From Nostoc sp. HK-01 (GTDB taxonomy: Bacteria; Cyanobacteriota; Cyanobacteriia; Cyanobacteriales; Nostocaceae): a stretch of DNA of 64,000 nucleotides. Below the pieces are notes generated by a model that did no database searches, had not been told where the DNA came from, and saw nothing but the letters and a program-made list of their open reading frames with translations. This document shows positions 3,950-45,000 of the stretch, one piece after another. Position numbers and translations under genes: made by a program. The stretch spans positions 4,715,501-4,779,500 of the forward strand of contig AP018318.1 of assembly GCA_003990705.1 (NCBI GenBank), in the 5' to 3' direction. Positions within the stretch are counted from its first letter, which is position 1. The number at the start of each line of letters is the position of its first letter.

Positions 3950-4022
3950 GCCCCCATCGTCTAGAGGCCTAGGACACCTCCCTTTCACGGAGGCGACGGG
4001 GATTCGAATTCCCCTGGGGGTA
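3950..4022 (+). tRNA. tRNA-Glu(TTC), copy 1
   Basis: A complete 73-nt cloverleaf is visible. The acceptor strands are GCCCCCA and TGGGGGT, the anticodon arm is CCTCC-CTTTCAC-GGAGG with anticodon TTC, and the T-loop is TTCGAAT. No CCA is encoded. In cyanobacteria this tRNA also feeds tetrapyrrole synthesis. Confidence 0.97.
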
Positions 4023-4070: not shown

Positions 4071-4143
4071 GCCCCCATCGTCTAGAGGCCTAGGACACCT
4101 CCCTTTCACGGAGGCGACGGGGATTCGAATTCCCCTGGGGGTA
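4071..4143 (+). tRNA. tRNA-Glu(TTC), copy 2
   Basis: This 73-nt gene is base-for-base identical to the tRNA-Glu at 3950-4022 and lies 48 bp downstream. It is a recent tandem duplication or is kept identical by gene conversion. Confidence 0.97.
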
Positions 4144-4810: not shown

Positions 4811-6880
4811 TTATAGTTCGCTTTCGTCTGAAAATTGGGGCAAGGTAAGAGTAAAAGAAACTTGGCTTTGTTCAGAATCGGGGATGGAAGTACTTTCAAC
4901 CGCGATCGCGCCATTCAAATGCTGTACTAAAGACTTGGCTAAAGCCAGCCCCAAACCCGTTCCCGGAGTCCATCGACCACCTTTACCACGCCGGAACCGA
5001 TCAAATATGTAGGTAGCTTCTTCTTCAGAAATTCCCCGTCCTGTATTAGTCACTTTAATAATAACTTGATCTACCAATTGCTCAACTTGGTGAAAGGCTT
5101 GTACATGAATTACAGTTTCCGGCTCTGAGTATGTACACGCATTCGTTAATAATTCTTGCAGGATACGGTTAAAACTTTCTAATTCAGTCTGTATTTTTAA
5201 CGAATCTTGGGGTAAATCCAGATTTATACTTAAGGTTTTAGTTGCCAGTTTTGAGTTCAGATTAGCTGCTAATCCCTGAATTCTCGTATTTAAATCTATA
5301 GTTTCAAATTGCGGACGTTCTTGCTTGGACTCTAACTTCTGGAGTGTCAGCAAATCATTAATTAAGTTAATCTCTTTCGTGCATTCTTGCTCTAGGATAT
5401 CCATGTATCTTGCTTGACGCTCTGGTTGAATTCCCGGCAAACGCAAATTCTTGATCGACATTTGCATATTGGTCAGTGGATACCGTAGGCGATCGCTCAT
5501 GTTGCTCAAAAATTCATCTTTGAGATGATTGAGTTCCCGTAGCTGCTCAACATATTGTCGTGTTTTTTCATGCAATTTCGCTTGCAATTCCAGACTACTT
5601 TGGAGTTTGGCTGTGCGCTCATCTACCAAAGTCTGTACCTGGCGCAATGTTTGTGACTGAATAATGGCATTGCTCATTTGAGCGCAGACCATTTCCACCA
5701 GATTTAATTCTGATGCTTGCCAACTACGGGCTGTTGCTTGTTGAAGAACAATAAACCCTAAAACTTTGCCTTGATTTTCTAATGGTACTAACAGTACCGC
5801 AGGCAAGATATCCAGTGTAAACAATGAAACAGCTGTCAAGGTGTCTTGGAGGTCTGTGTAATCATCGATAATTACGGCTTTTCCTGAATCTGTAAACACA
5901 CGTTGGCACAAACCACACTCAGAAATCAGAAATGACTGCGGCTCAACATCTGGCTTGGTAGCTGAATAACTTGATGTATTTCGGTTCCACTCAGCAACTA
6001 CGGTGGCCTTTGCTTTAGGAATTTGTTTTTTTGGTTGAGTTCTAAATAAAGGATCTGTATATTTGAGCAAGATAAGTAAGCCTCGGTCTGCCTGTAAAGA
6101 TTCGGCAGTAGACGAAATAGCTAACTGAAGCATTTGATTTAGCTCCAAATTACTCTTGCTTAATATAGTTAATTGCTTGATCAAGCTTTGATGTTCTTCG
6201 CTTTTTTGCAGATGCTCTTCTTGCGAGGTGATTAAATTCACTTGGGCAAATTGAGAAAAAGCGATCGCACAAGATGACTCAACAAAATTTAACAGTTGTT
6301 TTTCTGAATCACTCCAATTGTATGGTTGAAATTTTATCAGGCTAATCACACCATTATTTTGGCCAGCAAACCTAGTAGGAATAGCCAAAACAGATCTGAT
6401 TGGTAATGGCAGATGTTGTCCTCCTACTACCAAACTATCTTGGATAGTAGAAATATCCTCAATAGTAAATGGTTCCGCCGCACATTGAACTACAGGCGAG
6501 TCCATCAACAGATGCTCCGGGGAGAACATCTGACTTGGGTTTGGCATTGCCAAATACTCATCAGAACACCAATTGACAACGATTGATTCAGTGGATGCTG
6601 CGCTGGCGGATACTGTCACTAAACAACAGCAATCCACTTTAAAGGCATTTCCTAGCAATCGAGCAATTTCTTGCAGCATCAATGTCGTTGCTGAGTTATT
6701 GGCGATGATGTGATTAATTTTTTTTACCAACTGAAGAGTTGGTTCGTTCTGATGCTGCATCAGCTTGAGTGGGTATGATTGTAGTCGTTCTAGGTCATCT
6801 GGACACTGTGGCGGCAATGATAAACGTTTTTTCATTCCTGGCACGCTTTTAGATAATGACCTCATATCGTATGCACCCAA
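4811..6880 (-). CDS. GAF-domain sensor histidine kinase with degenerate H-box
   Basis: The 689-residue protein has two GAF-like regions (about 45-215 and 240-410), a coiled coil (412-452), a dimerisation region and a HATPase domain. The ATPase has an N-box around N580 (ELLTNACTYSEP), a G1 box (NTGRGISEEEA) and a G2 box (GTGLGLALAKS). In the H-box, the usual S-H-E-L-R-x-P-L reads S-D-R-L-R-Y-P-L, so D463 stands at the phospho-acceptor position. No membrane segment is seen, so it is cytoplasmic. It may bind ATP without normal autophosphorylation, or use another residue. It heads a probable operon with the SRPBCC gene. Confidence 0.85.
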   Translation of the reverse strand: MGAYDMRSLSKSVPGMKKRLSLPPQCPDDLERLQSYPLKLMQHQNEPTLQLVKKINHIIANNSATTLMLQEIARLLGNAFKVDCCCLVTVSASAASTESIVVNWCSDEYLAMPNPSQMFSPEHLLMDSPVVQCAAEPFTIEDISTIQDSLVVGGQHLPLPIRSVLAIPTRFAGQNNGVISLIKFQPYNWSDSEKQLLNFVESSCAIAFSQFAQVNLITSQEEHLQKSEEHQSLIKQLTILSKSNLELNQMLQLAISSTAESLQADRGLLILLKYTDPLFRTQPKKQIPKAKATVVAEWNRNTSSYSATKPDVEPQSFLISECGLCQRVFTDSGKAVIIDDYTDLQDTLTAVSLFTLDILPAVLLVPLENQGKVLGFIVLQQATARSWQASELNLVEMVCAQMSNAIIQSQTLRQVQTLVDERTAKLQSSLELQAKLHEKTRQYVEQLRELNHLKDEFLSNMSDRLRYPLTNMQMSIKNLRLPGIQPERQARYMDILEQECTKEINLINDLLTLQKLESKQERPQFETIDLNTRIQGLAANLNSKLATKTLSINLDLPQDSLKIQTELESFNRILQELLTNACTYSEPETVIHVQAFHQVEQLVDQVIIKVTNTGRGISEEEATYIFDRFRRGKGGRWTPGTGLGLALAKSLVQHLNGAIAVESTSIPDSEQSQVSFTLTLPQFSDESEL

Positions 6881-7596
6881 TTTCTTGGCATATTATTTTC
6901 ATTTAGTTATGTCGCGGCACCCTAGTTAGTGGCCAATTTTTTATCAAGACTTTCTCTCACCTGTTATAGCCCCTTTCTCTTGCAGATGAATAAGTAACTG
7001 GTATATTAATCTAATTTATACAGGGGTATAGAAAAATCTCTAAAATATATTAAGGTGATGCTTCGAGAGGATTTGGGGCTGGGACGCAGACCTAAACTAC
7101 TAGACTTTGGCCTAGGATAGCTTGTCGGTAACTATACATAAACCGTAATTTCTCTGGAATTAAGATAAAAACTCTCAAAAGTTTTACCGCATTAATACTG
7201 CTGAATATATTAAATTTAGTAATATTTATTGCTAAATATTTATCTTGTGCTAAGTACATTTCTATGGGTTTGCCAAAAATTAAATTCTATTATGACAGAA
7301 CCTTAGAAAAAACTCTGTGAGTGCTTTTGTCTCTTTGGAACAGGTTTATAGATAGTAATATCAAGCTTGTGGCTATATTTATTATGTGGTGATAAATCTT
7401 CTCATTTAATGTATCAAGTGTCATCGCATACCTAAAACTAAAACTCCAGTTTGCTTTTGAGATTGCCTATTGTGTTGGCAGCTTAATAAATATATATATT
7501 TTAAATAAAAAATATTGATAACGTGTGAAAGCTAAAGATTGAAAGCAGCCTAGTTAGCTGGATGAATAACTAAGCTGCCTTCGATTGAATTAAAAA
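6881..7596. other. Long AT-rich intergenic region
   Basis: I see no gene in these 716 bases. The stretch is AT-rich, with a TA-rich run near 7490-7515, and may hold the promoter of the histidine kinase. No clear hairpin or RNA is recognised. Confidence 0.45.
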
Positions 7597-7932
7597 CTAT
7601 CCAGCCAAACTTTCGACACTGAGAGGAACCATATCTCCGTTCCTGGTGAGTCCTAGTAACATAGGCTGTTGAGGTTGAATCAATTGACCTGTAAGTACAC
7701 AACGTTCTTCCTGCTGGGCGGTAGCGGCTATACTAGCTCGAATATCGGCTCTTGAAAATCGCGGTTTCCACTCACCGGATTTTTGCTGGACATAATTCCA
7801 GAGAATATCGCGGATTAAGGCTTGATAGCCTTGATTGCCAGCTATTTCTTTGAGTTTGTCTTTGAGTTCTCGCTCCAGGCGAATGCTGGTAACTTCCATA
7901 TCGGTAGTTGGGGTGCGAGTAATTGTGTGCAT
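7597..7932 (-). CDS. Ribbon-helix-helix (CopG-type) DNA-binding protein
   Basis: Residues 12-50 of this 111-residue protein (MEVTSIRLERELKDKLKEIA) fit the beta-strand and two helices of a ribbon-helix-helix DNA-binding domain. The C-terminal 50 residues are of unknown function. The start at 7932 is supported by AAGGAG about 8 nt upstream; an internal Met12 is an alternative. RHH proteins are often autorepressors or antitoxins, but no toxin gene adjoins it, so the target is unknown. Confidence 0.65.
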   Translation of the reverse strand: MHTITRTPTTDMEVTSIRLERELKDKLKEIAGNQGYQALIRDILWNYVQQKSGEWKPRFSRADIRASIAATAQQEERCVLTGQLIQPQQPMLLGLTRNGDMVPLSVESLAG

Positions 7933-8220
7933 GACTTTTTCTCCTTAAAGGTATAGACAGGATAGTAATACAAGTGTAGTATGTTTAAAGGAATGTTCAA
8001 TAGGTGAAATTTTCTGTGAAACCCATTTACCCCATCTCTACTTCTTTGCGTGCTGCCAACTGCCGATTTAGTTGGGAATCAGCTGCTATGGGAGTGGAGT
8101 ATTTATTTATGGGCGATGGTAGCCAAATTCATGGGCTAATCACAGAGGGGAATTATGATTTTAGATATCTCGGCATAGGCGCGCTGAATGCAAAACCACA
8201 ACCGAACCAAATAAGCGGGA

Positions 8221-8317
8221 GGTACAGACAAGAGAATGCTGTACCGATATAAAACCAGAAAAGTTTTTGGTAAGTTTCTAACCCCCGCTTCATTTAGACA
8301 AGAAGCGGGGGTTTTTT
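8221..8317 (+). promoter_or_regulatory. Two-hairpin leader or small RNA with terminator before the HNH gene
   Basis: A perfect 7-bp hairpin (GGTACAG/CTGTACC, 8221-8245) is followed by a perfect 12-bp hairpin (AACCCCCGCTTC/GAAGCGGGGGTT, 8280-8313) and a T-run to 8317. This is a strong rho-independent terminator on the + strand, ending only 4 nt before the AAGGAG of the HNH gene. It could end a short RNA or attenuate the HNH gene. Confidence 0.7.
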
Positions 8318-8333: not shown

Positions 8334-8852
8334 GTGACAAGCGTAATGCAGGTGTTAGAGCAATCTGTAGTGGTGTTTTCGCAAAATTACTTACCACTGT
8401 GTCGCATAAATATTAAGCGAGCGATTGTGTTGTTAGTCACGAATAAAGCAGAACCACTGGATTTTGCTTCAGAAGGTGGATGGCGAGTTCATTCACCCAG
8501 TCTAGTAATTGACGTACCAAAACACATTCGTTTGAAAATTGGCTCTAATGAACGGACATGGAAAGTACCACCAGTAAATCGGCGAGAAGTTTTGCGACGA
8601 GACCACTACACTTGTCAATATTGCGGTAGCAGCAAACGCCTGACCTTAGATCATGTCATCCCGCGATCCAAAGGTGGTTTACATACTTGGGATAACGTAG
8701 TCATAGCTTGTGAAAAATGTAACTCTCGGAAAGGCGATCGCACTTTGTCTGAGACTGGAATGCGTCTACGGAAAATACCAAAGGCACCCATTCACCCCGC
8801 GATCGCTTTTGCAGAACAATTTTGGATAAATGTGCAAGCAAACCTGGAATAG
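8334..8852 (+). CDS. HNH endonuclease
   Basis: The 172-residue protein carries a complete HNH nuclease motif: C94-x2-C97 (CQYC), L105-D-H107 followed by PRSKGG, N121 and C126-x2-C129-N130. The two Cys pairs would bind zinc. The GTG start at 8334 has AAGGAG 7 nt upstream; an ATG at 8346 is possible. Stand-alone HNH proteins of this size are common in cyanobacteria and are also found beside mobile DNA. It lies 1.8 kb upstream of the tRNA array, which may or may not be meaningful. The gene follows a terminator-like leader. Confidence 0.85.
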   Translation: MTSVMQVLEQSVVVFSQNYLPLCRINIKRAIVLLVTNKAEPLDFASEGGWRVHSPSLVIDVPKHIRLKIGSNERTWKVPPVNRREVLRRDHYTCQYCGSSKRLTLDHVIPRSKGGLHTWDNVVIACEKCNSRKGDRTLSETGMRLRKIPKAPIHPAIAFAEQFWINVQANLE

Positions 8853-8868: not shown

Positions 8869-9258
8869 ATGCTGAAATTAACTTATACCGAAAGGAGCTT
8901 TTGTTTAGAGTGTATTCCTCAGTCACTAGAGGAGTGGGTAACACAGCGCGTAATTTTCGCTATGCGAGTTGGACAAAATCTGTGTGTTGAACCCAGTACT
9001 GCTTCCTTTTTGCTACCTGTTGATCTTCCAGGGGTAGAAGCACTCAAGGCGGAAGTGAAACGAGATGATCGGGAAGTCATAGCCTTGTGTGTCTGCGATA
9101 GCGAATATATGGAAGTCACCCTACGCGGTTCTTGGCTATCAAACAGTGCTGAAGATTCTGTGGGTGTGTTCATCACCACCATGAGCGATCGCACCGAGTT
9201 CTTTCTGCAAAAACTGTGGCAAGAAGCGCAAGCTTGTACTTCGGTGATGAGCGAGTAA
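8869..9258 (+). CDS. Conserved cyanobacterial protein of unknown function
   Basis: This 129-residue protein starts 17 bp after the HNH gene, with AGGAG upstream, and is probably co-transcribed with it. It has no signal peptide or membrane segment and contains HIP1-type sites. I do not recognise a domain. The length, good start signal and protein-like composition support a real gene. Confidence 0.65.
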   Translation: MLKLTYTERSFCLECIPQSLEEWVTQRVIFAMRVGQNLCVEPSTASFLLPVDLPGVEALKAEVKRDDREVIALCVCDSEYMEVTLRGSWLSNSAEDSVGVFITTMSDRTEFFLQKLWQEAQACTSVMSE

Positions 9259-10296: not shown

Positions 10297-10336
10297 TTGA
10301 CATCTTTTGTAGTATTTATGTAGTATATATGTAGTG
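10297..10336 (+). promoter_or_regulatory. Candidate promoter of the tRNA array with 11-bp direct repeats
   Basis: TTGACA at 10297-10302 is followed after 18 nt by TAGTAT at 10321-10326, a reasonable sigma-70-type promoter facing the tRNA array. Overlapping the -10 region are tandem copies GTAGTATTTAT (10309-10319), GTAGTATATAT (10320-10330) and a partial GTAGTG (10331-10336), spaced about one helical turn, as an operator might be. Confidence 0.5.
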
Positions 10337-10370
10337 AGGCGAAAGACAAAGCCTTCCAAAGTTAAAAGTC

Positions 10371-10565: not shown

Positions 10566-10683
10566 CAGTTTTTCTTAATCAAAGTAATTTTTCCGAACCT
10601 TGAAAACTGAATAAGGAATGGGCAAGTTCACCAAAAATTATCTGTGCATCTAATCCTAAAAATTAGGCACAGATACCAAACAT

Positions 10684-10757
10684 GGGGGTATAGCTCAAAT
10701 GGTGAGAGCGATCGCCTGTCGAGCGATAGGTTGCGAGTTCGAGTCTCGTTACTCCCG
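10684..10757 (+). tRNA. tRNA-Asp(GTC), array gene 1
   Basis: Acceptor GGGGGTA/TACTCCC, anticodon arm ATCGC-CTGTCGA-GCGAT with anticodon GTC, T-loop TTCGAGT and discriminator G, as expected for Asp. The HIP1-like GCGATCGC forms one side of the anticodon stem, and the other side matches it. Confidence 0.92.
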
Positions 10758-10760
10758 TGT

Positions 10761-10834
10761 AGCCTTGTGGACGACTAGATAAGTCGCTGCGCCTCTCAAG
10801 CACAGAGAAGCGGGTGCAACTCCCGTCAAGGCTC
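10761..10834 (+). tRNA. tRNA-Glu(CTC), array gene 2
   Basis: Acceptor AGCCTTG/CAAGGCT pairs fully. The anticodon loop CTCTCAA gives CTC. The anticodon stem TGCGC/GCACA has one C-A mismatch, and the T-loop is TGCAACT rather than TTC. It is probably a weak or decaying tRNA. Confidence 0.7.
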
Positions 10835-10840
10835 CTATAA

Positions 10841-10913
10841 GGCTGAGTAGCCAAGTGGTTGAAGGCATTGGTCTGCAAAACCGACATCGTGAGTTCGATT
10901 CTCACCTCAGCCT
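10841..10913 (+). tRNA. tRNA-Cys(GCA), array gene 3
   Basis: Acceptor GGCTGAG/CTCAGCC, anticodon loop CTGCAAA (GCA), T-arm GTGAG-TTCGATT-CTCAC and discriminator T, the Cys identity base. Confidence 0.93.
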
Positions 10914-10922
10914 TTGGTACCT

Positions 10923-10994
10923 TGTAGTGTAGCTTAACGGTAAAGCCCTCGGCTCATAACCGAGTATATGCGGGTTCAACTCCCGCCACTGCTA
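10923..10994 (+). tRNA. tRNA with CAT anticodon (Met, or Ile2), array gene 4
   Basis: Anticodon arm CTCGG-CTCATAA-CCGAG gives CAT, and the T-arm is GCGGG-TTCAACT-CCCGC. The acceptor TGTAGTG/CACTGCT has a T-T clash at the first pair. It lacks the three G-C pairs of an initiator, so it would be elongator Met or lysidine-type Ile. Confidence 0.8.
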
Positions 10995-10996
10995 AT

Positions 10997-11068
10997 GCAG
11001 GGATGGTGTAACGGCAACACCTCGTGACTCCAAATCCGATGTTCTAGGTTCAAATCCTAGTCCCTGCG
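10997..11068 (+). tRNA. tRNA-Trp(CCA) with bulged anticodon stem, array gene 5
   Basis: Acceptor GCAGGGA/TCCCTGC and T-arm CTAGG-TTCAAAT-CCTAG pair perfectly, and the discriminator is G as for Trp. The anticodon loop CTCCAAA (CCA) is closed by TCGTGA against TCCGA, which pairs only if one T is bulged out. Confidence 0.65.
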
Positions 11069-11078
11069 TTCTACTTTT

Positions 11079-11151
11079 GCCCCCGTGGACGAACGGTTAA
11101 ATCACTGCACTTTCAAAGCGGAGATTGCGGGTTCAAATCCCGTCGGGGGAA
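11079..11151 (+). tRNA. tRNA-Glu(TTC), array gene 6
   Basis: Loop CTTTCAA gives TTC. The acceptor GCCCCCG/CGGGGGA mispairs at position 1-72, and the anticodon stem has an A-A clash next to the loop. The T-arm GCGGG-TTCAAAT-CCCGT is good. It differs clearly from the two housekeeping tRNA-Glu genes at 3950 and 4071. Confidence 0.75.
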
Positions 11152-11155
11152 TTAT

Positions 11156-11232
11156 GGGTCGATGGCCGAGTCTGGTTAAAGGCGACAGTCTGTAAAACTG
11201 TTCTATTTTGTTCGCAGGTTCAAATCGACCCA
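11156..11232 (+). pseudogene. Degenerate tRNA-Tyr(GTA), array gene 7
   Basis: Acceptor GGGTCGA/TCGACCC, anticodon arm ACAGT-CTGTAAA-ACTGT (GTA) and a long variable region fit tRNA-Tyr. After T-stem GCAGG and TTCAAA the sequence passes straight into the acceptor strand TCGACCC, so the 3' half of the T-stem (about CCTGC) is missing. The T-arm cannot form. Confidence 0.75.
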
Positions 11233-11236
11233 TTGT

Positions 11237-11326
11237 GGAGAGGTGGCTGAGTGGTTCAAAGCATCCTCCTGCTAAGAGGAAACGGGTAGTTAATACTCGT
11301 CGAGGGTTCAAATCCCTCTCTCTCCG
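11237..11326 (+). tRNA. tRNA-Ser(GCT), array gene 8
   Basis: A 90-nt class II tRNA: acceptor GGAGAGG/TCTCTCC, anticodon arm TCCTC-CTGCTAA-GAGGA (GCT), a long variable arm, T-arm GAGGG-TTCAAAT-CCCTC and discriminator G. Confidence 0.93.
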
Positions 11327-11331
11327 CCTGA

Positions 11332-11400
11332 AAAGTGCTGAGTGCTGAGTGCTGAGTCAAAATACTAGTCCCTAGCCTCTAGCCTCTAGCCCCTAATCCC
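11332..11400. repeat. Short tandem repeats inside the tRNA array
   Basis: Copies of a GTGCTGA heptamer (near 11335-11357) and of CCTCTAG-type heptamers (near 11371-11392) fill the gap between tRNA-Ser and tRNA-Arg. Such heptamers are a known trait of Nostocales spacers. Confidence 0.75.
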
Positions 11401-11404
11401 TATT

Positions 11405-11479
11405 GAGAGCGTGGTGTAACTGGATAACATCTCAGTCTACGAAACTGAAGAAGTGGGGGTTCAAATCCCTTCGCTCTCG
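11405..11479 (+). tRNA. tRNA-Arg(ACG), array gene 9
   Basis: Acceptor GAGAGCG/CGCTCTC, anticodon arm TCAGT-CTACGAA-ACTGA (ACG, read as ICG after deamination), T-loop TTCAAAT and discriminator G. Confidence 0.9.
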
Positions 11480-11486
11480 TTACATA

Positions 11487-11555
11487 GGAGAGATGGTGGA
11501 GTGGCTGATTCAAGTTGAATTAAACCAGTCCACGGGGTAATTACCCATCTCTCCT
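11487..11555 (+). pseudogene. tRNA-like remnant, array position 10
   Basis: A perfect 7-bp acceptor (GGAGAGA/TCTCTCC) and a D-arm-like TGGTGGAGTGG lie in the right place and spacing. The middle has no usable anticodon loop, only ATTCAA-G-TTGAAT, and the T-arm lacks TTC and is reduced to GGGTAATTACCC. It is probably a decayed tRNA; its original identity is unclear. Confidence 0.55.
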
Positions 11556-11561
11556 TCCTAT

Positions 11562-11635
11562 CCCCTGGTAGCTCAGTTGGTAGTAGTGCCTGTTTGAAAA
11601 ACAGGAGGTCGTCGGTTCAATTCCGACCTGGGGGA
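11562..11635 (+). tRNA. tRNA-Phe(GAA), array gene 11
   Basis: Acceptor CCCCTGG/CTGGGGG, anticodon arm CCTGT-TTGAAAA-ACAGG (GAA), T-arm GTCGG-TTCAATT-CCGAC, discriminator A. The D-stem GCTC has a weak partner. Confidence 0.88.
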
Positions 11636-11641
11636 CTGCGT

Positions 11642-11714
11642 TGCCTCGTAGCTCAGTGGTAGTAGCGATCGCCTGTTAAGCGAAAAGTCGCAGGTTCAAA
11701 TCCTGCCGAGGCAG
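11642..11714 (+). tRNA. tRNA-Asn(GTT), array gene 12
   Basis: Acceptor TGCCTCG/CGAGGCA, anticodon loop CTGTTAA (GTT), T-arm GCAGG-TTCAAAT-CCTGC, discriminator G, and CCA encoded at 11715-11717. A HIP1 octamer makes the 5' side of the anticodon stem and leaves an A-A mismatch at its base. Confidence 0.9.
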
Positions 11715-11722
11715 CCATTCAT

Positions 11723-11795
11723 TGCCGGGTGGACGAATTGGTAAGTCGCATCGCTCTGAACGATGAGGTTGCAGGTTCAAAGCCTGCCCTGGCAA
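11723..11795 (+). tRNA. tRNA-Gln(CTG), array gene 13
   Basis: Acceptor TGCCGGG/CCTGGCA, anticodon arm CATCG-CTCTGAA-CGATG (CTG), T-arm GCAGG-TTCAAAG-CCTGC, discriminator A. Many cyanobacteria read CAG with the TTG isoacceptor alone, so this is likely supernumerary. Confidence 0.85.
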
Positions 11796-11798
11796 TAA

Positions 11799-11871
11799 AG
11801 CCCTGTGGTGTAATTGGCAACATCCCGCCCTTTGAAGGCGAAGATTCCAGGTTCGACCCCTGGCAGGGCTG
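11799..11871 (+). tRNA. tRNA-Gln(TTG), array gene 14
   Basis: Acceptor AGCCCTG/CAGGGCT, anticodon loop CTTTGAA (TTG) on stem CCGCC/GGCGA with one mismatch, T-arm CCAGG-TTCGACC-CCTGG, discriminator G and CCA encoded at 11872-11874. Confidence 0.88.
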
Positions 11872-11880
11872 CCAAACTTT

Positions 11881-11985
11881 GCTCTTGTAGCCCAATTGGA
11901 AGAGGCTGCCGTCTCAAAAACGGTATGTTGTGGGTACCCTTTGGGAAGCCACCCTGAAGGGTGTCTACGAGTCTCACCAAGAGTA
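11881..11985 (+). tRNA. tRNA-Leu(CAA), T-loop interrupted, array gene 15
   Basis: Acceptor GCTCTTG/CAAGAGT, anticodon arm GCCGT-CTCAAAA-ACGGT (CAA), a 5-nt variable loop, and CCA encoded at 11986-11988. T-stem halves GTGGG and CTCAC are separated by a T-loop carrying a 31-nt insertion (11936-11966). Without it the loop would be TACGAGT. The short variable loop is odd for Leu. Confidence 0.75.
11936..11966 (+). repeat. 31-nt insertion in the T-loop of tRNA-Leu(CAA)
   Basis: The insert contains a hairpin CACCC-TGAA-GGGTG and is flanked by TAC on the left (from 11935) and TAC on the right (from 11966). It resembles the small dispersed repeats described in Nostoc. The neighbouring tRNA-Leu(TAA) has the same body without the insert, which defines its limits. 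Confidence 0.7.
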
Positions 11986-11994
11986 CCAAAACTA

Positions 11995-12070
11995 GCTCCT
12001 GTAGCCCAATTGGAAGAGGCGGCAGACTTAAAATCTGTTAGTTGTGTGGGTTCGACTCCCACCGGGAGTA
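11995..12070 (+). tRNA. tRNA-Leu(TAA), class I shape, array gene 16
   Basis: Acceptor GCTCCTG/CGGGAGT, anticodon arm GCAGA-CTTAAAA-TCTGT (TAA), variable loop about 7 nt, T-arm GTGGG-TTCGACT-CCCAC, CCA at 12071-12073. It has no group I intron, unlike the usual cyanobacterial tRNA-Leu(UAA). Confidence 0.85.
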
Positions 12071-12074
12071 CCAA

Positions 12075-12148
12075 CGGGATGTGGCGCAACTTGGTAGCGC
12101 GGCAGCTTTGGGAGCTGAAGGTTGCAGGTTCAAATCCTGCCATCCCGA
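12075..12148 (+). tRNA. tRNA-Pro(TGG), array gene 17
   Basis: Acceptor CGGGATG/CATCCCG, anticodon loop TTTGGGA (TGG), T-arm GCAGG-TTCAAAT-CCTGC, discriminator A. The D-arm TGGCGCAACTTGGTAGCGC is typical of Pro. Confidence 0.93.
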
Positions 12149-12151
12149 TAT

Positions 12152-12224
12152 GCCCCTGTGACGGAACGGCATACGTGCTGGAATCAGAGTCCAGATTTTA
12201 CAGGTTCAAATCCTGTCAGGGGTA
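12152..12224 (+). tRNA. tRNA-Leu(CAG), class I shape, array gene 18
   Basis: Acceptor GCCCCTG/CAGGGGT, anticodon arm CTGGA-ATCAGAG-TCCAG (CAG), T-arm ACAGG-TTCAAAT-CCTGT, discriminator A. The D-arm (ACGGAACGGCATACGT) looks Leu-like, but the variable loop is only 5 nt. Confidence 0.85.
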
Positions 12225-12228
12225 CTAA

Positions 12229-12305
<77 letters not shown>

Positions 12306-12317
12306 ATATCAGAGTAT

Positions 12318-12391
12318 GCCCTTGTAGCCCAACTGGAAGAGGTGCTTCGCTTAGAACGAAGAGGTTGCTGGTTCAAATCCAGTCAGGGGCA
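12318..12391 (+). tRNA. tRNA-Leu(TAG), class I shape, array gene 20
   Basis: Acceptor GCCCTTG/CAGGGGC, anticodon arm CTTCG-CTTAGAA-CGAAG (TAG), short variable loop, T-arm GCTGG-TTCAAAT-CCAGT, discriminator A. The D-arm matches those of the CAA and TAA genes in the array. Confidence 0.88.
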
Positions 12392-12400
12392 TTGGTGAAA

Positions 12401-12474
12401 TGCGGGGATGGAGCAAGAGTGGCTTAGAGGTCTCATAAGCCTCATATCAGCAGGTGCAACTCCTGCCCCCGTCA
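12401..12474 (+). tRNA. tRNA-Met(CAT), initiator-like, array gene 21
   Basis: Acceptor TGCGGGG/CCCCGTC has a mismatch at the first pair, as initiators do, and the D-arm GGAGCA resembles tRNA-fMet. The anticodon loop is CTCATAA, but the stem end GGT/GCC lacks the full three G-C pairs. The T-loop is TGCAACT. CCA is encoded at 12475-12477. Confidence 0.78.
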
Positions 12475-12477
12475 CCA

Positions 12478-12545
12478 AATAAGGCAAAAGTCACAAGTTA
12501 AAAGGCAAAAGTAAAGAAAAAGAAAATCTTTTTACTTTTTAACAA
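12478..12545. repeat. AAAAGT-type repeats between tRNA-Met and tRNA-Thr
   Basis: The spacer consists of near-repeats of AGGCAAAAGT and AAAGTTAAA, with a run of A followed by a run of T (near 12513-12540) that may form a weak hairpin. Confidence 0.5.
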
Positions 12546-12547
12546 GT

Positions 12548-12620
12548 GCTGGTGTAGCTCAACTGGCAGAGCAACTGACTTGTAATCAGTAGGTTGCAGG
12601 TTCAATTCCTGTCACCAGCC
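12548..12620 (+). tRNA. tRNA-Thr(TGT), array gene 22
   Basis: Acceptor GCTGGTG/CACCAGC, anticodon arm ACTGA-CTTGTAA-TCAGT (TGT), T-arm GCAGG-TTCAATT-CCTGT, CCA at 12621-12623. The discriminator is C, unusual for Thr. Confidence 0.92.
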
Positions 12621-12632
12621 CCAGAATACGAT

Positions 12633-12703
12633 GCGATCGTGGTGTAACGGCAGCATCAGAGTCTTCCAAACTCACGGTACGAGTTCGAGTCTCGTCGATC
12701 GCT
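12633..12703 (+). tRNA. tRNA-Gly(TCC), array gene 23
   Basis: Acceptor GCGATCG/CGATCGC, anticodon loop CTTCCAA (TCC) on stem AGAGT/ACTCA with one mismatch, T-arm ACGAG-TTCGAGT-CTCGT, discriminator T. A HIP1-like sequence forms the acceptor stem. Confidence 0.88.
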
Positions 12704-12712
12704 CTGAAACTT

Positions 12713-12784
12713 GCGGGTGTGATGTAATCGGTAGCATCTGAGTGCGCCACATTCAGCGTGTGGGTTCAAATCCCTTCACTCGCT
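12713..12784 (+). tRNA. tRNA-Gly(GCC), array gene 24
   Basis: Acceptor GCGGGTG/CACTCGC, anticodon arm TGAGT-GCGCCAC-ATTCA (GCC) with C at position 33, and a T-stem GTGGG/CCCTT with one T-T clash. The discriminator is T. Confidence 0.8.
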
Positions 12785-12789
12785 TGCGT

Positions 12790-12861
12790 AGTCCTGTAGT
12801 TCAACGGTAGAGCAATTGCCTTACAAGCAATAAGTTGCGGGTTCAAATCCTGTCAGGACTA
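12790..12861 (+). tRNA. tRNA-Val(TAC), array gene 25
   Basis: Acceptor AGTCCTG/CAGGACT, anticodon arm ATTGC-CTTACAA-GCAAT (TAC), T-loop TTCAAAT, discriminator A, CCA encoded at 12862-12864. Confidence 0.92.
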
Positions 12862-12870
12862 CCAATTATT

Positions 12871-12944
12871 GGGAGTGTAGCTCAACTGAAGAGAGCATCG
12901 AGCTTCTAACTCGAAGGTTGTAGGTTTGAGTCCTACCACTCTCG
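12871..12944 (+). tRNA. tRNA-Arg(TCT), array gene 26
   Basis: Acceptor GGGAGTG/CACTCTC, anticodon arm TCGAG-CTTCTAA-CTCGA (TCT), T-arm GTAGG-TTTGAGT-CCTAC, discriminator G. Confidence 0.9.
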
Positions 12945-13030
12945 CCTGAATAAGTCAAAAGTTAAAGGTTAAAAGGTAAAACAAAAAATTCAATTTTTAC
13001 TTTCTACTTTACACTTTTTACTTTCTTCAT
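12945..13030. repeat. AAAAGTT/AACTTTT-type repeats between tRNA-Arg and tRNA-Ala
   Basis: The spacer holds AGTTAAAGGTTAAAAGGT-like repeats followed by a run of TTTTTACTTTCTACTTT-like repeats. The two halves are roughly complementary. Confidence 0.5.
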
Positions 13031-13104
13031 GGGGTCATAGCTCAAATGGCTAGAGCGCCTGCCTTGCAAGCAGGAGGTTATGGGTTCAATTCCCATTGAT
13101 TCCA
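13031..13104 (+). tRNA. tRNA-Ala(TGC), array gene 27
   Basis: Acceptor GGGGTCA/TGATTCC, anticodon arm CCTGC-CTTGCAA-GCAGG (TGC), T-arm ATGGG-TTCAATT-CCCAT, discriminator A. The G3-U70 pair, the Ala identity element, is present. Confidence 0.94.
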
Positions 13105-13109
13105 CTGAT

Positions 13110-13184
13110 GGTGTCTGAAGCCAAAGCGGTCGAGGCACTGGTTTGTGGAACCAGTCACAGCGAGTTCAAGTCTCGTCGGACACC
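13110..13184 (+). tRNA. tRNA-His(GTG), array gene 28
   Basis: Acceptor GTGTCTG/CGGACAC with the extra G at -1 facing C73 that marks His, anticodon arm CTGGT-TTGTGGA-ACCAG (GTG), T-loop TTCAAGT. Confidence 0.93.
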
Positions 13185-13191
13185 CGTGAAT

Positions 13192-13274
13192 GGAAGATGC
13201 CGCTAAATGGTTGGCAACCGGTCTTGAAAACCGGGGTGGGGTAATACCCAGGAGTTCGATTCTTCCATCTTCCG
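13192..13274 (+). tRNA. tRNA-Ser(TGA), array gene 29
   Basis: A class II tRNA of 83 nt: acceptor GGAAGAT/ATCTTCC, anticodon arm CCGGT-CTTGAAA-ACCGG (TGA), a long variable arm GGTGGGGTAATACCC, T-loop TTCGATT, discriminator G. Confidence 0.9.
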
Positions 13275-13278
13275 CCTT

Positions 13279-13350
13279 CCACCTGAAGCCGAAAAGTGAG
13301 GCGCTGTGCTGATAACACAGAAACAGGAGGGGCAGTACCTCCCTGGTGGA
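13279..13350 (+). tRNA. tRNA-Ile(GAT) with odd T-loop, array gene 30
   Basis: Anticodon arm CTGTG-CTGATAA-CACAG gives GAT. Acceptor CCACCTG/CTGGTGG has one T-T clash. T-stem GGAGG/CCTCC is good, but its loop GGCAGTA lacks TTC, so T-loop modification and folding are doubtful. Confidence 0.75.
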
Positions 13351-13374
13351 TTTTACTTCCCATTCCTTATTCAT

Positions 13375-13446
13375 GGGTGGTTGGCATAGCGGCTGTGCAG
13401 CGGGCTTTTAATCCGCCATAGAGAGGTTCGACTCCTCTACCACCCA
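13375..13446 (+). tRNA. tRNA-Lys(TTT), array gene 31
   Basis: Acceptor GGGTGGT/ACCACCC, anticodon arm GCGGG-CTTTTAA-TCCGC (TTT), T-arm AGAGG-TTCGACT-CCTCT, discriminator A. It is the last gene of the array, 14 bp before the stop of the TPR gene on the other strand. Confidence 0.93.
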
Positions 13447-39085: not shown

Positions 39086-42000
39086 ATGGCAACCGAACAG
39101 TTAATCAGAGAAAGCGACAATCTTGATTTAAAACAACTGCTAAAAACACTAACTGCTGTTAAAAAAGGTGACTTTTCTGTTCGGATGTCTGTAGACCAAA
39201 CAGGTCTAGCTGGGAAAATAGCTGACACGCTCAACGATATTATTGATCAAAATGAGCGTATGGCATTAGAACTACAACGCATTGGTAATGTTGTCGGTAA
39301 AGAAGGCAAAATTACTGAACGCGCTTCTATGGGAACTGTGCGCGGTTCTTGGTCAGATTGTGTCAATTCTGTCAATACTCTAATTACAGATTTAGTCCAA
39401 CCCACCGCCGAAACTACACGGGTGATTCGGGCGGTAGCGAATGGGGATTTGTCTCAAACCATCCCTACAGAAATCGACGGTAAAGCCCTCAAAGGTGAGT
39501 TTCTGCAAACAGCCAATATCGTCAACACAATGGTGGATCGGCTGGGTTCCTTCGCCTCGGAAGTAACACGGGTAGCGCGGGAAGTGGGAACAGAAGGAAA
39601 ATTAGGTGTACAAGCAGAAGTTAAAGGGGTAGCGGGTACCTGGAAAGACCTCACCGACAACGTGAATTTAATGGCGGGGAACCTGACAGGACAGGTGCGA
39701 AATATTGCCGAAGTTGCAACGGCGATCGCCAATGGTGACTTATCGAAGAAAATTACTGTTAACGTCAAAGGCGAAATTCTAGAACTGAAAAACACCGTCA
39801 ATACAATGGTGGATCAGTTGAATTCCTTTGCATCAGAAGTAACAAGGGTAGCGCGGGAAGTAGGAACAGAAGGAAAATTGGGCGTACAAGCAGAAGTCCG
39901 TGGTGTGGCGGGTACATGGAAAGACCTCACCGACAACGTGAACTTGATGGCGGGAAATTTGACAGGACAGGTAAGGAATATTGCGGAAGTTGCAACGGCG
40001 ATCGCTAATGGTGATTTATCCAAGAAAATTACAGTTGATGTCAAAGGTGAAATTCTCGAACTGAAAAACACCATCAATATCATGGTGGATCAACTCAGTT
40101 CATTTGTGTCAGAAGTAACCAGGGTAGCGAGAGAAGTAGGTAGTGAAGGAAAACTGGGTGTACAAGCAGATGTAAAAGGTGTTGCGGGTACGTGGAAAGA
40201 TTTGACAGACAGTGTAAACTTCATGGCGGGAAGTTTGACAGCCCAAGTACGGAACATCGCCGAAGTAACAACGGCGGTGGCGAATGGTGACTTGTCGAAG
40301 AAAATCACCGTGGATGTGAAGGGTGAAATCTTGGAGTTGAAGAACACTATTAATACAATGGTGGATCAACTCAACTCCTTCGCTTCGGAAGTAACGCGGG
40401 TAGCGCGCGAGGTGGGAACAGAAGGAAAACTCGGCGTACAAGCAGAAGTGCGAGGGGTTGCGGGAACCTGGAAAGACCTCACCGATAACGTGAATTTGAT
40501 GGCGGGGAACCTGACAGGACAGGTGCGGAATATCGCAGAAGTTGCAACGGCGATCGCTAATGGTGACTTGTCGAAGAAAATTACTGTAGATGTCAAGGGC
40601 GAAATTTTTGAACTCAAAAACACCATCAATATCATGGTGGATCAACTGAGTTCCTTTGCATCAGAAGTAACGCGGGTAGCGCGAGAAGTAGGAAGTGAAG
40701 GGAAACTGGGTGTACAAGCGGATGTGCGGGGTGTAGCTGGTACATGGAAAGACCTCACAGACTCAGTAAACTTCATGGCGGGAAGTTTGACAGCCCAAGT
40801 GCGGAACATCGCAGAAGTGACAACGGCGGTGGCGAATGGCGACTTGTCGAAGAAAATCACCGTGGATGTGAAGGGTGAGATTTTGGAGTTGAAAAACACC
40901 ATCAATACAATGGTGGATCAACTCAACTCCTTCGCCTCGGAGGTAACGCGGGTTGCTAGGGAAGTGGGAAGTGAAGGAAAACTGGGGGTACAAGCAGAAG
41001 TCCGAGGGGTGGCGGGTACGTGGAAAGACCTCACCGACTCGGTGAACTTCATGGCGGGAAGCTTGACAGCCCAAGTGCGAAATATTGCTGATGTAACAAC
41101 AGCGGTGGCGAATGGTGACTTGTCGAAGAAAATCACCGTGGATGTGAAGGGCGAAATTTTAGAGTTGAAAAACACCATCAATACAATGGTGGATCAACTG
41201 AGTTCCTTTGCATCAGAAGTAACCAGGGTAGCCCGTGAGGTGGGTACAGAAGGAAAACTGGGGGTACAAGCAGAGGTGCGAGGCGTTGCGGGTACGTGGA
41301 AAGACTTGACAGGTGCGGTGAATATGATGGCGGGGAACCTCACCGACCAAGTACGCAGCATTGCGGAAGTTGCAACAGCGATCGCAAATGGTGACTTGTC
41401 GAAGAAAATCACAGTCCAAGTTAAAGGTGAAATTCTCGAACTGAAAAACACCATCAATATCATGGTGGATCAGTTAAATTCCTTCGCCTCGGAAGTAACA
41501 AGGGTGGCGCGGGAAGTAGGTAGTGAAGGAAAACTGGGTGTACAAGCAGACGTGAAAGGGGTTGCGGGTACGTGGAAAGACCTCACCGACTCGGTGAACT
41601 TCATGGCGGGAAGTTTGACAGCCCAAGTACGAAACATTGCGGCGGTGACGACGGCGGTGGCGAATGGCGACTTATCGAAGAAAATTTCTGTTGATGTTAA
41701 AGGTGAAATTCTGGAGTTGAAAAACACCGTCAACACGATGGTGGATCAACTCAACTCCTTCGCTTCTGAAGTAACGCGGGTGGCGCGAGAGGTGGGAACG
41801 GAAGGAAAATTGGGCGTACAAGCAGAAGTAAAAGGCGTTGCAGGTACTTGGAAAGACCTCACCGACTCGGTGAACTTCATGGCGGGAAGCTTGACAGCCC
41901 AAGTGCGGAACATCGCCGATGTGACGACGGCGGTGGCGAATGGCGACTTGTCGAAGAAAATCACTGTGGATGTCAAAGGTGAAATTCTGGAACTGAAAAA

Positions 42001-45000
42001 CACCATTAATACAATGGTGGATCAACTCAACTCCTTCGCCTCGGAAGTAACGCGGGTAGCGAGGGAGGTGGGAACGGAAGGTAAATTGGGTGTACAAGCC
42101 TACGTGCGAGGGGTTGGCGGTACGTGGAAAGACCTGACCGACAATGTGAACTCGATGGCGGGGAATCTGACAGCCCAGGTGCGGAACATTGCGGAAGTAA
42201 CGAAGGCGGTGGCGAATGGTGACTTGTCGAAGAAAATCACCGTGGATGTCAAAGGTGAAATTCTCGACTTGAAGAACACCATCAACACAATGGTGGATCA
42301 ACTCAGTTCCTTCGCATCGGAAGTAACGCGGGTAGCGCGGGAGGTGGGAACGGAAGGTAAATTGGGCGGTCAAGCTGTGGTACAAGGGGTGGCTGGTACC
42401 TGGAAAGACCTCACCGACAATGTAAACTCGATGGCGGGTAACTTAACAGCCCAAGTGCGAGGAATTGCGCGAGTTGTGACCGCCGTTGCGAATGGCGACT
42501 TGAAACGGAAATTGATGTTAGATGCTAAAGGTGAAATTGAAACCTTAGCAGAAACCATCAACGAAATGATTGATACCCTAGCGACCTTTGCCAATCAGGT
42601 AACAACCGTAGCGCGGGAAGTAGGAATTGAAGGGAAGTTAGGCGGTCAAGCTAAGGTTCCAGGTGCAGCCGGAACGTGGAAAGACTTGACAGACAACGTA
42701 AACGAACTAGCTGCGACACTCACAACTCAGTTACGCGCGATCGCCGAAGTAGCAACAGCAGTAACAAAAGGCGACTTAACCCGGTCAATATCCGTAGAAG
42801 CACTAGGAGAAGTGGCAATCCTCAAAGACAACATCAACCAGATGATTGCCAACCTGCGCGAAACAACCCAAAAGAACACCGAACAAGACTGGTTAAAGAC
42901 CAACCTCGCCAAGTTTACCCGAATGCTGCAAGGTCAGCGCGACTTGGAAACCGTCTCCAAACTAATTCTCTCGGAACTTGCACCATTGGTAGGCGCACAA
43001 CACGGCGTATTTTACTTAATGGATGCGGGAGAACAACAACAAGCATATCTGAAATTACTTAGCAGTTACGCATACCGCGAACGCAAACATCTAGCAAATC
43101 GTTTTCAAATGGGCGAAGGTTTGGTCGGACAATGTGCTTTGGAAAAAGAGCGAATTTTGTTAACAGAAGTCCCGATGGATTATGTCAAAATTAGTTCTGG
43201 TTTAGGTGAGTCCAGCCCACTCAATGCCGTAGTTTTACCCGTGTTATTTGAAGGACAAGTGACAGCGGTGATAGAACTCGCTTCCTTCCGCCGCTTTAGT
43301 GAGATTCATTTAACATTCTTCGACCAACTCACTGAAAGTATTGCGATCGTTCTCAATACAATCGCCGCTTCCATGCGTACCGAAGAATTGCTCAAACAGT
43401 CCCAATCTTTGGCAGAAGAACTCCAAACCCAACAAAACGAACTCAAAGAAACTAACAAACGTCTCGAACAACAAGCCCAATCACTGAAGACTTCTGAAGA
43501 TTTACTCAAGAAGCAGCAAGAAGAATTACAACAAACCAACGCCGAACTCGAAGAAAAAGCCGAGTTGTTGGCACAGCAAAAGAAAGAAGTCGAGTGGAAA
43601 AACCGCGAAATTGAACAAGCCAGATTATCTTTAGAAGAAAAAGCTGCCCAACTCGCCCTATCATCCAAATACAAATCAGAATTTCTGGCGAATATGTCCC
43701 ACGAACTGCGGACACCGTTAAATAGCCTGTTAATTTTGGCGAAGTTGTTGACAGATAACATCGATGGGAATCTCAGCACCAAACAAGTTGAATATAGTCG
43801 CACCATTTACTCCGCCGGGAATGACTTGTTAGCGCTGATTAATGACATCCTCGATTTGGCGAAAATTGAATCGGGAACCATGTCGATTGATATGTCTCAG
43901 ATGTTAGTTACAGATTTGCGAGATCAAACCGATCGCACCTTCCGCCAAATCGCCCAAGACAAAGGACTCGGTTTCACCATTGAATTAGGTACTGAACTTC
44001 CCAAAGCAATTTATACTGACCCCAAACGTTTGCAACAAGTCCTGAAAAATCTCCTTTCCAACGCCTTTAAATTTACCGATCGCGGTGAAGTACGCTTGCA
44101 AATAGATGTCGCCAAGCAAGGATGGAGTATTAATCAAGAAACCTTGAACCGCGCCCCAATAGTAGTTGCCTTTTCTGTCATCGATACAGGGATTGGTATT
44201 GCCCCCGAAAAGCAAAAAGTGATTTTTGAAGCATTTCAACAAGCCGACGGCACTACTAGCCGCAAATACGGCGGTACAGGGCTAGGCTTATCCATCAGCC
44301 GAGAAATTGCCCGTCTGTTTGGTGGAGAAATTACCTTAGTAAGTAGCCTAACTCAAGGCAGTACATTTACCTTCTACTTACCACAATTCAATTCTGAGTC
44401 AACATTCACCACTCCTGAACCAACAACTCAACGAATGGCGACTCAGCCAGCAACCTTCAACACACAGCACACAACCACCTTAGCAGTCACTGAAGTGCAG
44501 CCAACAGAGGTAGTTAATCCCGTTGCATCCCCAACACAGTGGCTGATCCCTAACTCCCAAGTGCCAATTTTAGAAGACGATCGCATTGATATCCACAATG
44601 GCGATCGCATCTTGTTAATTGTCGAAGATGACATTCATTTCGCTCGCATCCTCTTAGAAATGGCACAGCAGCAAGGATTCAAAGTCATCGCCGCCCAAAG
44701 TGGTAGTAATGGTTTAGCATTAGCCCAACAATTCCAACCTTTGGGGATTTTACTTGATATCCGCCTACCTGATATGGATGGTTGGACGGTGTTAGATCGC
44801 TTAAAACATGATCCAAATACCCGTCATATTCCTGTACATATCATGACAGTCGAAGAAGGCAAACGACGGAGTTTGCAATTAGGCGCGTTAGCATATTTGC
44901 AAAAACCAGCCAGCAGCGAAAGTATATCTGAGGCTTTAAACAAAATTAAAGGTTTTGTGGAACGGCGGGTGAAGAATTTGCTGGTAGTTGAAGATGACGA

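Follow-up and report, generated by a model that had tools for sequence, protein, structure and literature searches.

The DNA studied here is a 64,000-nucleotide (nt) stretch of Nostoc sp. HK-01 (C1:4715501-4779500, hereafter the window), located on a 6.49-Mb contig that was taken as the chromosome; the genome totals 7.52 Mb in 8 contigs. The window contains a long array of tRNA genes behind a promoter that carries boxes of the type bound by the repressor TrcR, and close to the 3' end of the array lies a noncanonical Ile-like RNA. The array and its leader comprise the following features.

10297..10326, + strand: array promoter TTGACA-N18-TAGTAT, found by scan and conserved 5' of related arrays
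10308..10337, + strand: three TrcR-type boxes, TGTAGTAT (10308), TGTAGTAT (10319) and TGTAGTGA (10330), the box being taken from PMC10272220
10371..10565, + strand: leader open reading frame (ORF) of 64 codons, identified by conservation and by the ratio of nonsynonymous to synonymous substitution rates (dN/dS)
10639..10675, + strand: leader hairpin 5' of the first tRNA (-13.7 kcal/mol, z -5.5)
10684..13446, + strand: tRNA array of 31 genes (ARAGORN, Rfam, hand reading)
11156..11232, + strand: tRNA-Tyr(GTA) lacking the 3' half of its T-stem (Rfam, 42 bits)
11488..11555, + strand: degenerate Ser-like remnant (hand reading)
11881..11988, + strand: tRNA-Leu(CAA) with a T-loop insertion (RF00005, 16.1 bits, and hand reading)
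12403..12475, + strand: initiator-like CAT gene (hand reading)
13190..13274, + strand: tRNA-Ser(TGA) with a possible 8-bp acceptor and 4-bp T-stem (tRNA-Sec model, 42.8 bits, cutoff 47)
13279..13351, + strand: noncanonical tRNA-Ile(GAU)-like RNA (conservation, covariation)
13375..13446, + strand: tRNA-Lys(TTT), the final array gene (ARAGORN, Rfam)

ARAGORN called 24 tRNAs between 10683 and 13447, every one on the + strand, and the Rfam model RF00005 at its gathering score found 25 in the same stretch, adding Tyr-GTA and Gly-GCC to the ARAGORN set; Glu-CTC gave no RF00005 match, even at E ≤ 10. The union of both programs is 26 genes, and hand reading together with a permissive Rfam search added five more (the Ser-like remnant, Leu-CAA, the initiator-like CAT gene, Ser-TGA, and the Ile-GAT-like gene), giving 31. 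With a lowest Rfam E-value in the window of 4.3e-14, a chance origin of the array calls is negligible. An earlier note, made from the letters of this DNA alone, had given 31 tRNA or tRNA-like genes on the + strand at 10684 to 13446, and both count and coordinates are right. L-arrays were reportedly defined by Tran in 2016 as holding at least 20 tRNA genes at high density, and the 26 software calls, or 31 genes by reading, in 2.8 kb place the locus among them. All 20 amino acids are named by the array, as the note had also said, with Tyr represented by one truncated gene that it had recorded as defective; the noncanonical nature of the only Ile gene was missed. By our own reading, approximately 27 of the 31 genes appear intact, the four damaged or doubtful ones being Tyr, the Ser-like remnant, Leu-CAA, and Trp, which has a poor anticodon stem. 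Intact Tyr copies are present in arrays of relatives and in a second array of this genome (see below), a match to the Ser-like remnant occurs in 18 of 36 type I arrays and in none of 25 type II arrays, and the initiator-like CAT gene has a match in 43 of 61 arrays. Spacers made of short repeats lie within the array. A T-loop reading TGCAACT (G at 55) was seen in Glu-CTC of both arrays of this genome (10761-10835; L001:5626-5702) and in the window CAT gene at 12403.

In the promoter, TTGACA starts at 10297 and TAGTAT at 10321, separated by an 18-nt spacer. Scanning the region returned four promoter-like sites versus 3.5 in shuffled sequence, so the weight of this promoter rests on its conservation. 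According to the excerpts of PMC10272220 on which we draw throughout, TrcR of Anabaena PCC 7120, a ribbon-helix-helix (RHH) repressor, binds TGTAGTAT where it overlaps the -10 hexamer (TAGTAT) of the trn promoter; there, deletion of trcR derepresses the trn operon, elongation inhibitors lower TrcR, and the operon is silent until translation is inhibited. In the window, too, the TGTAGTAT operator lies on the -10 box. The exact tandem pair of boxes occurs once in the 7.52-Mb genome, and with up to two mismatches it occurs at 14 sites (two of them overlapping in the array promoter) versus two for a reversed control. These sites include the promoter of the second array (C4:71448), and a one-mismatch tandem site lies approximately 130 nt upstream of rtcB, an RNA ligase gene that serves tRNA repair in other bacteria. 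A further two-mismatch pair (C1:2586658) was noticed some 380 nt from a weak tRNA match of excessive length, uncalled by ARAGORN (C1:2586163-2586283, - strand).

To place the operator in a wider setting, 62 arrays were scored: that of the window, the second array of this genome, and 60 from relatives. The pair was present at 12 or more of 14 positions in 56 of them, while base shuffles of each upstream stretch averaged 6.2 to 9.5 and never exceeded 13; three of the six arrays below this score (L102, L126, and L147) have less than 65 nt of upstream sequence. Among loci from the whole collection with enough upstream sequence, 29 of 34 carried the pair. Twenty-four of these 34 were not among the earlier 62 arrays, and 19 of the 24 have the operator, including loci that by title belong to Laspinema (L223), Limnofasciculus (L225), and Aphanothece (L257).

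The probable regulator is encoded 2.4 kb upstream of the array promoter, in a group of four genes.

7597..7932, - strand: trcR homolog of 111 amino acids, RHH-like, a likely repressor gene (RHH_4, Leu44, upstream motif)
7966..7982, - strand: putative trcR autoregulatory motif ATACTACACTTGTATTA, the sole exact genome match to ATACTACANNTGTATTA, at -50 to -34 of the ORF start
8004..8252, + strand: ORF of 82 amino acids in the position of asr0855 (assigned by position only)
8334..8852, + strand: HNH endonuclease gene in the position of alr0856 (HNH_5, 2.5e-16)
8869..9258, + strand: gene for an alr0857-family protein (NCBIfam alr0857_fam, 171 bits, cutoff 75)

The trcR homolog has Leu at position 44, a residue named in PMC10272220, and its upstream motif may be compared with the footprint of PCC 7120 TrcR on its own gene, at -53 to -28 (PMC10272220). 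The order trcR, 82-amino-acid ORF, HNH gene, alr0857_fam gene equals that of all0854 to alr0857 in PCC 7120, genes that are raised by deletion of trcR; both HNH genes of PCC 7120 respond to TrcR (PMC10272220). The 82-amino-acid ORF gave no protein family match. The trcR gene, found in this genome, is present in 188 of 192 genomes of the family, far more widely than the arrays, and of the 60 genomes with trcR as well as the leader ORF listed, 52 have the two within 6 kb of each other, seven have them farther apart, and one has them on separate contigs.

On a 93-kb contig (C4), HK-01 has its second array, which is of a plasmid type and in which ARAGORN called 25 tRNAs. By eye, its Ser-GCT gene is split by a transposase-like insertion (L001, approximately 6320 to 7420), and its Pro (L001:7835-7910) and Thr (approximately 8389 to 8460) genes share the same altered T-arm run, TTGCTCTTTCAA, seemingly breaking both T-stems. 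In chromosomal-type arrays the distance from the operator to the first called tRNA is mostly about 350 to 500 nt, versus about 93 to 105 nt in plasmid-type arrays, where larger values occur if the first tRNA gene is uncalled; these have a short leader without the 64-codon ORF. Of 37 chromosomal-type loci, 33 yielded the ORF; in two of the remainder the stretch did not include the promoter region, and in the last two the start or frame was altered. The ORF is present in 62 of the 192 family genomes, five of which have an internal stop. With a median dN/dS of 0.44 over 520 pairs, the leader ORF is under mild constraint. It has no Pfam match and nothing near an NCBIfam cutoff, and against the plasmid collection it gave one weak match, within a restriction enzyme gene. 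One 0.9-kb stretch (L314; G052:C50:20500-21400) holds the leader ORF, a drifting Ile-like RNA, and tRNA-Lys, with no other tRNA called.

Comparison with the housekeeping set, which numbers 50 tRNAs including two Ile-GAT genes, was made from a search that scored 150 of 564 candidates, so that the list may be incomplete. Identity to the best housekeeping gene with the same anticodon ranged from 0.54 to 0.86 for the window array and from 0.52 to 0.79 for the C4 array, and an origin of the arrays as copies of housekeeping tRNAs was ruled out by these values (0.52 to 0.86). Glu-CTC and Gln-CTG are in the array and were not found among the 50 housekeeping tRNAs of this possibly incomplete list. A group I intron gave one match in the genome.

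The Ile-like RNA of the window was neither called by ARAGORN nor matched by Rfam at E ≤ 10. It can be drawn as a cloverleaf with arms of 7, 3, 5, and 5 pairs, which is near standard, with a single mismatched acceptor pair in the window copy. The anticodon loop, CTGATAA (CUGAUAA), is that of the housekeeping tRNA-Ile, and A73 is kept. The canonical U8, G18, and T54-T55 are missing; the D-loop reads GAAAAGYGA and the T-loop GGCAGTA. C56 is kept and an equivalent of G19 is possible, and the set G18-G19/T54-T55-C56 is thus incomplete. U8, G18, and T54-T55 are thought to be used in RNase P action, CCA addition, and EF-Tu binding. A recent copy of the housekeeping tRNA-Ile was considered and ruled out, overall identity being 0.42 with the anticodon loop shared.

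Two alignments of the Ile-like RNA were made. In the first, identical copies were collapsed and L128, L144, and L148 were dropped for shifted acceptor ends, L130, L150, and L151 being unmatched by the pattern; the second holds 106 copies chosen by hand from 132 unique matches, with spurious, indel-bearing, and near-duplicate ones excluded, and includes L128, L144, L148, L150, and L151 and leaves out L130. Across the 106 copies, 96.6% of the cells are paired, and 14 of 20 pairs change on both sides. Doubly changed cells numbered 147, versus 27.9 ± 7.0 after shuffling and no more than 48 when partners were slid; as these cells count sequences rather than events, and kinship alone can exceed shuffles, the slid-partner control weighs most. 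RNAalifold, unaided, predicted 16 pairs, every one inside the given structure. Single sequences folded only mildly better than their shuffles, the window copy reaching z -1.8, and L316, a diverged copy, adopts another fold. Some plasmid-type copies have mismatched acceptor halves of a recombination-like kind, and in the L130 array the 3' half is lost. Overall, the Ile-like RNA is a conserved RNA and not in general a pseudogene.

The element was found in 60 of 61 other arrays, their copies having 95.9% median identity to that of the window. In this it stands level with Ala and Thr; higher values were reached by Trp and Gln-CTG, which occur in fewer arrays (52 and 47). Among 62 modules picked out by BLAST, all have an intact anticodon loop and 60 an intact T-loop, GGCAGTA, whereas the variable loop drifts; where matches were selected by a pattern built on these two loops, their constancy is partly by construction, and model searches recovered the T-loop variants AGCAGTA and AGCATTA. 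Within the fetched stretches, ARAGORN called tRNA-Ile(GAT) in none of the 61 arrays and in none of 92 collection loci with at least eight tRNAs, two of which received an Ile(tat) call. A covariance model identified the Ile-like RNA in 94 of the 192 family genomes. An array, scored as present where the best E-value of the array search fell below 1e-24, occurs in 102 of them; 93 of these have the Ile-like RNA and nine do not, and it occurs in one of the 90 genomes without an array (G043). Selection of the array loci themselves was manual, from among the matches listed.

Of 386 genomes sampled across the phylum, 33 matched the model at E ≤ 0.1, with strong matches confined to the same order; a weaker one of 38 bits (G395) is a normal tRNA-Ile adjoining tRNA-Ala, and matches above E 0.02 are chance-like. 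A DNA pattern found at least 117 Ile-like stretches in genome_contigs. All 80 that were listed carry cyanobacterial titles, Microcoleus, Oscillatoria, Lyngbya, Phormidium, and Symploca among them; in 64 the Ile-like RNA directly adjoins a Ser tRNA or Ser-like stretch, and at least five tRNAs are chained upstream in 59. By title, the class spans one large cyanobacterial order, from Nostoc to Microcoleus and Oscillatoria. Among plasmids, 15 records carry the RNA, and in 13 of these the match spans 80% or more of it; the gene tables of these plasmids list no RNA genes, so that "none" there does not prove a gene to be unannotated. Spread or origin through viruses was considered and rejected: viral_contigs held no exact match to the pattern; the 25 phage records matching the Ile-like RNA at E ≤ 10 reached, among the matches listed, at most 38% coverage at E of about 2; and of 896 phage records matching the array none covers 80% of it, the best listed covering 6%.

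For the adjacent Ser-TGA gene, GGAAGATG...CATCTTCC is exact in 51 of 62 arrays. tRNA-Sec has the anticodon UCA and an 8/5 branch; the array gene reads TGA and scores below the tRNA-Sec cutoff. A class of 8/4 serine tRNAs was reportedly described by Mukai in 2017; an 8-bp acceptor with a 4-bp T-stem could also fit the array Ser(UGA), which differs from tRNA-Sec in anticodon (UGA, not UCA) and in its score below the cutoff.

Promoter, operator, and regulator together assign the locus to a kind already known, that of the trn operon which TrcR represses and stress induces. The earlier note had likened it to the L-array of Anabaena PCC 7120, and the promoter with its TrcR box and the trcR homolog 2.4 kb upstream bear this out; the comparison with other arrays that it proposed shows promoter, operators, gene order, and stem covariation to be conserved across genera. 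We consider that the window array is probably a chromosomal reserve tRNA operon under TrcR that is induced by stress, with a rough probability of 0.7. That reserve set is the best reading because of the TrcR box, the trcR homolog, and the operator-like site near rtcB; to this extent the note's proposal of a reserve translation set holds, homology to other arrays included, while its second half, escape from an anticodon nuclease, is not supported (see below). During normal growth, TrcR on the tandem boxes overlapping the -10 box would silence the array, trcR, the HNH gene, and rtcB. When elongation stalls, TrcR would fall, as reported for the PCC 7120 protein, and one long transcript would be made, with the 64-codon leader ORF (presumably translated), the hairpin, and approximately 30 tRNAs, which normal processing enzymes would release. 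These tRNAs, not being copies of the housekeeping genes, would add Glu-CTC and Gln-CTG to the cell, and Ile would be supplied through a tRNA-Ile(GAU) with a normal anticodon loop, A73, and a remodelled D-loop/T-loop elbow, a gene that would be expected to work as a tRNA. Genes, promoter, operators, linkage, conservation, and covariation were observed here; repression, induction, and a survival benefit come from literature on PCC 7120 only, the operon of which this array probably resembles in behavior, expression included.

As described in the excerpts of PMC10272220, the PCC 7120 operon has 26 tRNA genes and lies on the delta plasmid, whereas the window array has 31 and lies on the 6.49-Mb contig; common to both are a long same-strand operon, TGTAGTAT over a -10 TAGTAT, and TrcR, and the PCC 7120 regulon likewise includes rtcB and HNH genes. 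The window array differs in being linked to trcR, in the presence of a second, plasmid-type array in the genome, and in its 64-codon leader ORF (the leader and 3' end of the PCC 7120 operon lay outside the comparison). Plasmid arrays of other Nostocales (PCC 7524, C052, CENA543, PCC 7601/7712, and others) are homologous and have the Ile-like RNA, but have a leader of about 93 to 105 nt without the ORF and an HNH gene upstream.

Several observations weigh against a reserve operon under TrcR. The RHH_4 match of the trcR homolog, at E 0.0089, is below the Pfam cutoff. A good operator was not found in L119, L145, and L150 (11 of 14 positions in L150), all with adequate upstream sequence, nor in five of the 34 collection loci (L204, L209, L226, L249, and L254), three of which are Microcoleus by title (L204, L226, and L249). 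At least three of the 31 genes (Tyr, Leu-CAA, and the Ser-like remnant) appear broken. Arrays are absent from about half of the family (102 of 192 genomes have one), and their function is therefore dispensable. Lastly, the Ile-like RNA, without U8, G18, and T54-T55, may have no role in translation.

This last point leads to the alternative that survives best, namely, that the Ile-like RNA is a nontranslating tRNA mimic acting off the ribosome, either as a decoy for an enzyme that recognizes the Ile anticodon loop or as a stress regulator. We hold this to be unlikely while taking it seriously. Missing canonical elbow bases, an anticodon loop and a T-loop kept in 62 and 60 of the 62 modules beside a drifting variable loop, and conservation about equal to that of the best array genes (median 95.9%) are all consistent with it; however, arm lengths are near normal, A73 and the CUGAUAA loop are kept, and no other Ile gene is called in the arrays, so that the RNA fills the slot in a complete set. 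Comparable RNAs are known: tRNA-Pyl and type II mitochondrial tRNAs are, in the excerpts of PMC7609411 considered, functional without the usual pairing bases of D-loop and T-loop; the Ile-like RNA resembles them in this and differs in its near-standard arms, C56, Ile anticodon, and bacterial setting. A broader version of the idea is that the arrays replace tRNA-Ile with a distinct class of remodelled-elbow RNA that has a job under stress outside or beside decoding (as a decoy, as a sensor, or as a dedicated donor of Ile). The TrcR island expressing it would join a repressor, an HNH nuclease, and a tRNA set and have its operator in common with a repair ligase gene. This, too, is put forward tentatively, and we would sooner expect it to fail. 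If true, an Ile tRNA long kept in a stress operon with a noncanonical elbow would test the need of translation for the elbow. The linkage of array, repressor, and nuclease gene at one locus is a clean setting for asking what purpose reserve tRNA sets serve, and with the covariance model and the operator the whole class becomes searchable.

The earlier note had proposed that insensitive array tRNAs replace housekeeping tRNAs cut by an anticodon nuclease, which we now regard as improbable. Phage tRNA sets have been so interpreted (PMC10264068, in the excerpts used), the array tRNAs are far from the housekeeping set, and an operator-like site lies upstream of the RNA repair ligase gene rtcB. Nevertheless, of the 21 window genes that could be compared, 10 share the whole anticodon loop with the best housekeeping gene, as do 13 of 24 C4 genes, leaving 11 of 21 and 11 of 24 that differ. 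Of the window loop positions outside the anticodon, 64 of 84 (76%) are identical, versus a median whole-gene identity of 0.62; the loops are thus no more changed than the gene bodies. At positions 32, 37, and 38 of the window set, 44 of 63 are identical, and single array genes could be resistant through changes there.

It is very unlikely that the array is a decaying pile of acquired tRNAs with no present use. The damaged genes (at least three of 31), the short-repeat spacers, and the insertion that splits Ser-GCT of the C4 array would be expected from decay, but conservation across genera extends to promoter, operators, gene order, and stem covariation, and the operon of PCC 7120 is reported to favor survival (PMC10272220, citing Santamaria-Gomez 2021).

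Equally hard to sustain, and a shade more doubtful, is the view that HNH gene and array act as a unit, housekeeping tRNAs being cut by a nuclease induced under stress while resistant ones come from the array. In 21 of 25 plasmid-type loci the array has an HNH paralog on its 5' side (the exceptions are L134, L145, L147, and L151, with a long upstream stretch only at L145), and both HNH genes of PCC 7120 respond to TrcR, as noted above. Fourteen records of the plasmid collection have a close HNH homolog (E < 1e-30), and they are the same 14 that have a long cyanobacterial array, the gene lying on the array strand 0.23 to 2.5 kb 5' of the array match; a plasmid of Nostoc sp. UHCC 0870 with the Ser and Ile-like genes alone has no close HNH homolog, which weakens this count. 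On the other hand, the HNH gene is present in 145 of the 192 family genomes versus 102 with an array, so that many have it without one and it is not tied to the arrays; copies in five plasmid-type loci (L128, L130, L131, L132, and L142) look split, partial, or stopped, and the domain matches DNA nucleases and several defence families alike.

Least probable of all is that the terminal RNA only resembles a tRNA and in fact marks the 3' end of the array as a terminator or exonuclease block, for although it lies at or near array 3' ends and its T-arm scores as terminator-like, tRNA-Lys follows approximately 20 to 180 nt downstream in many arrays, a terminator scan gave two matches against a shuffle mean of 3.7, and termination needs no conserved D- and anticodon loops.

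As judged from literature searches, Rfam, and Pfam/NCBIfam, but without the original papers on the PCC 7120 operon, several things look new: the near-constant Ile-like RNA, the ORF in the leader, the linkage between the array and its trcR and HNH genes, and the HNH gene upstream of the array in all 14 plasmid records with a long cyanobacterial array.

Relatives of TrcR were also sought in viruses. None was confirmed in IMG/VR, and among named phages a TrcR-like protein of 35.6% identity was found in nine Nodularia records, in agreement with the two phages named as having one in the excerpts of PMC10272220. In a 12.3-kb stretch of one Nodularia phage, TrcR boxes numbered 16, versus a chance mean of 15.8. 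The TrcR-like protein of Nodularia phage 2AV2 (L329, 6001-6303) could hold the host regulon silent during infection. Elsewhere in the window, an ORF of 2,229 amino acids (39086-45775) has many antisense ORFs, suggesting internal repeats, and two housekeeping tRNA-Glu(TTC) genes stand in tandem at 3950-4022 and 4071-4143, scoring 57.1 bits each.

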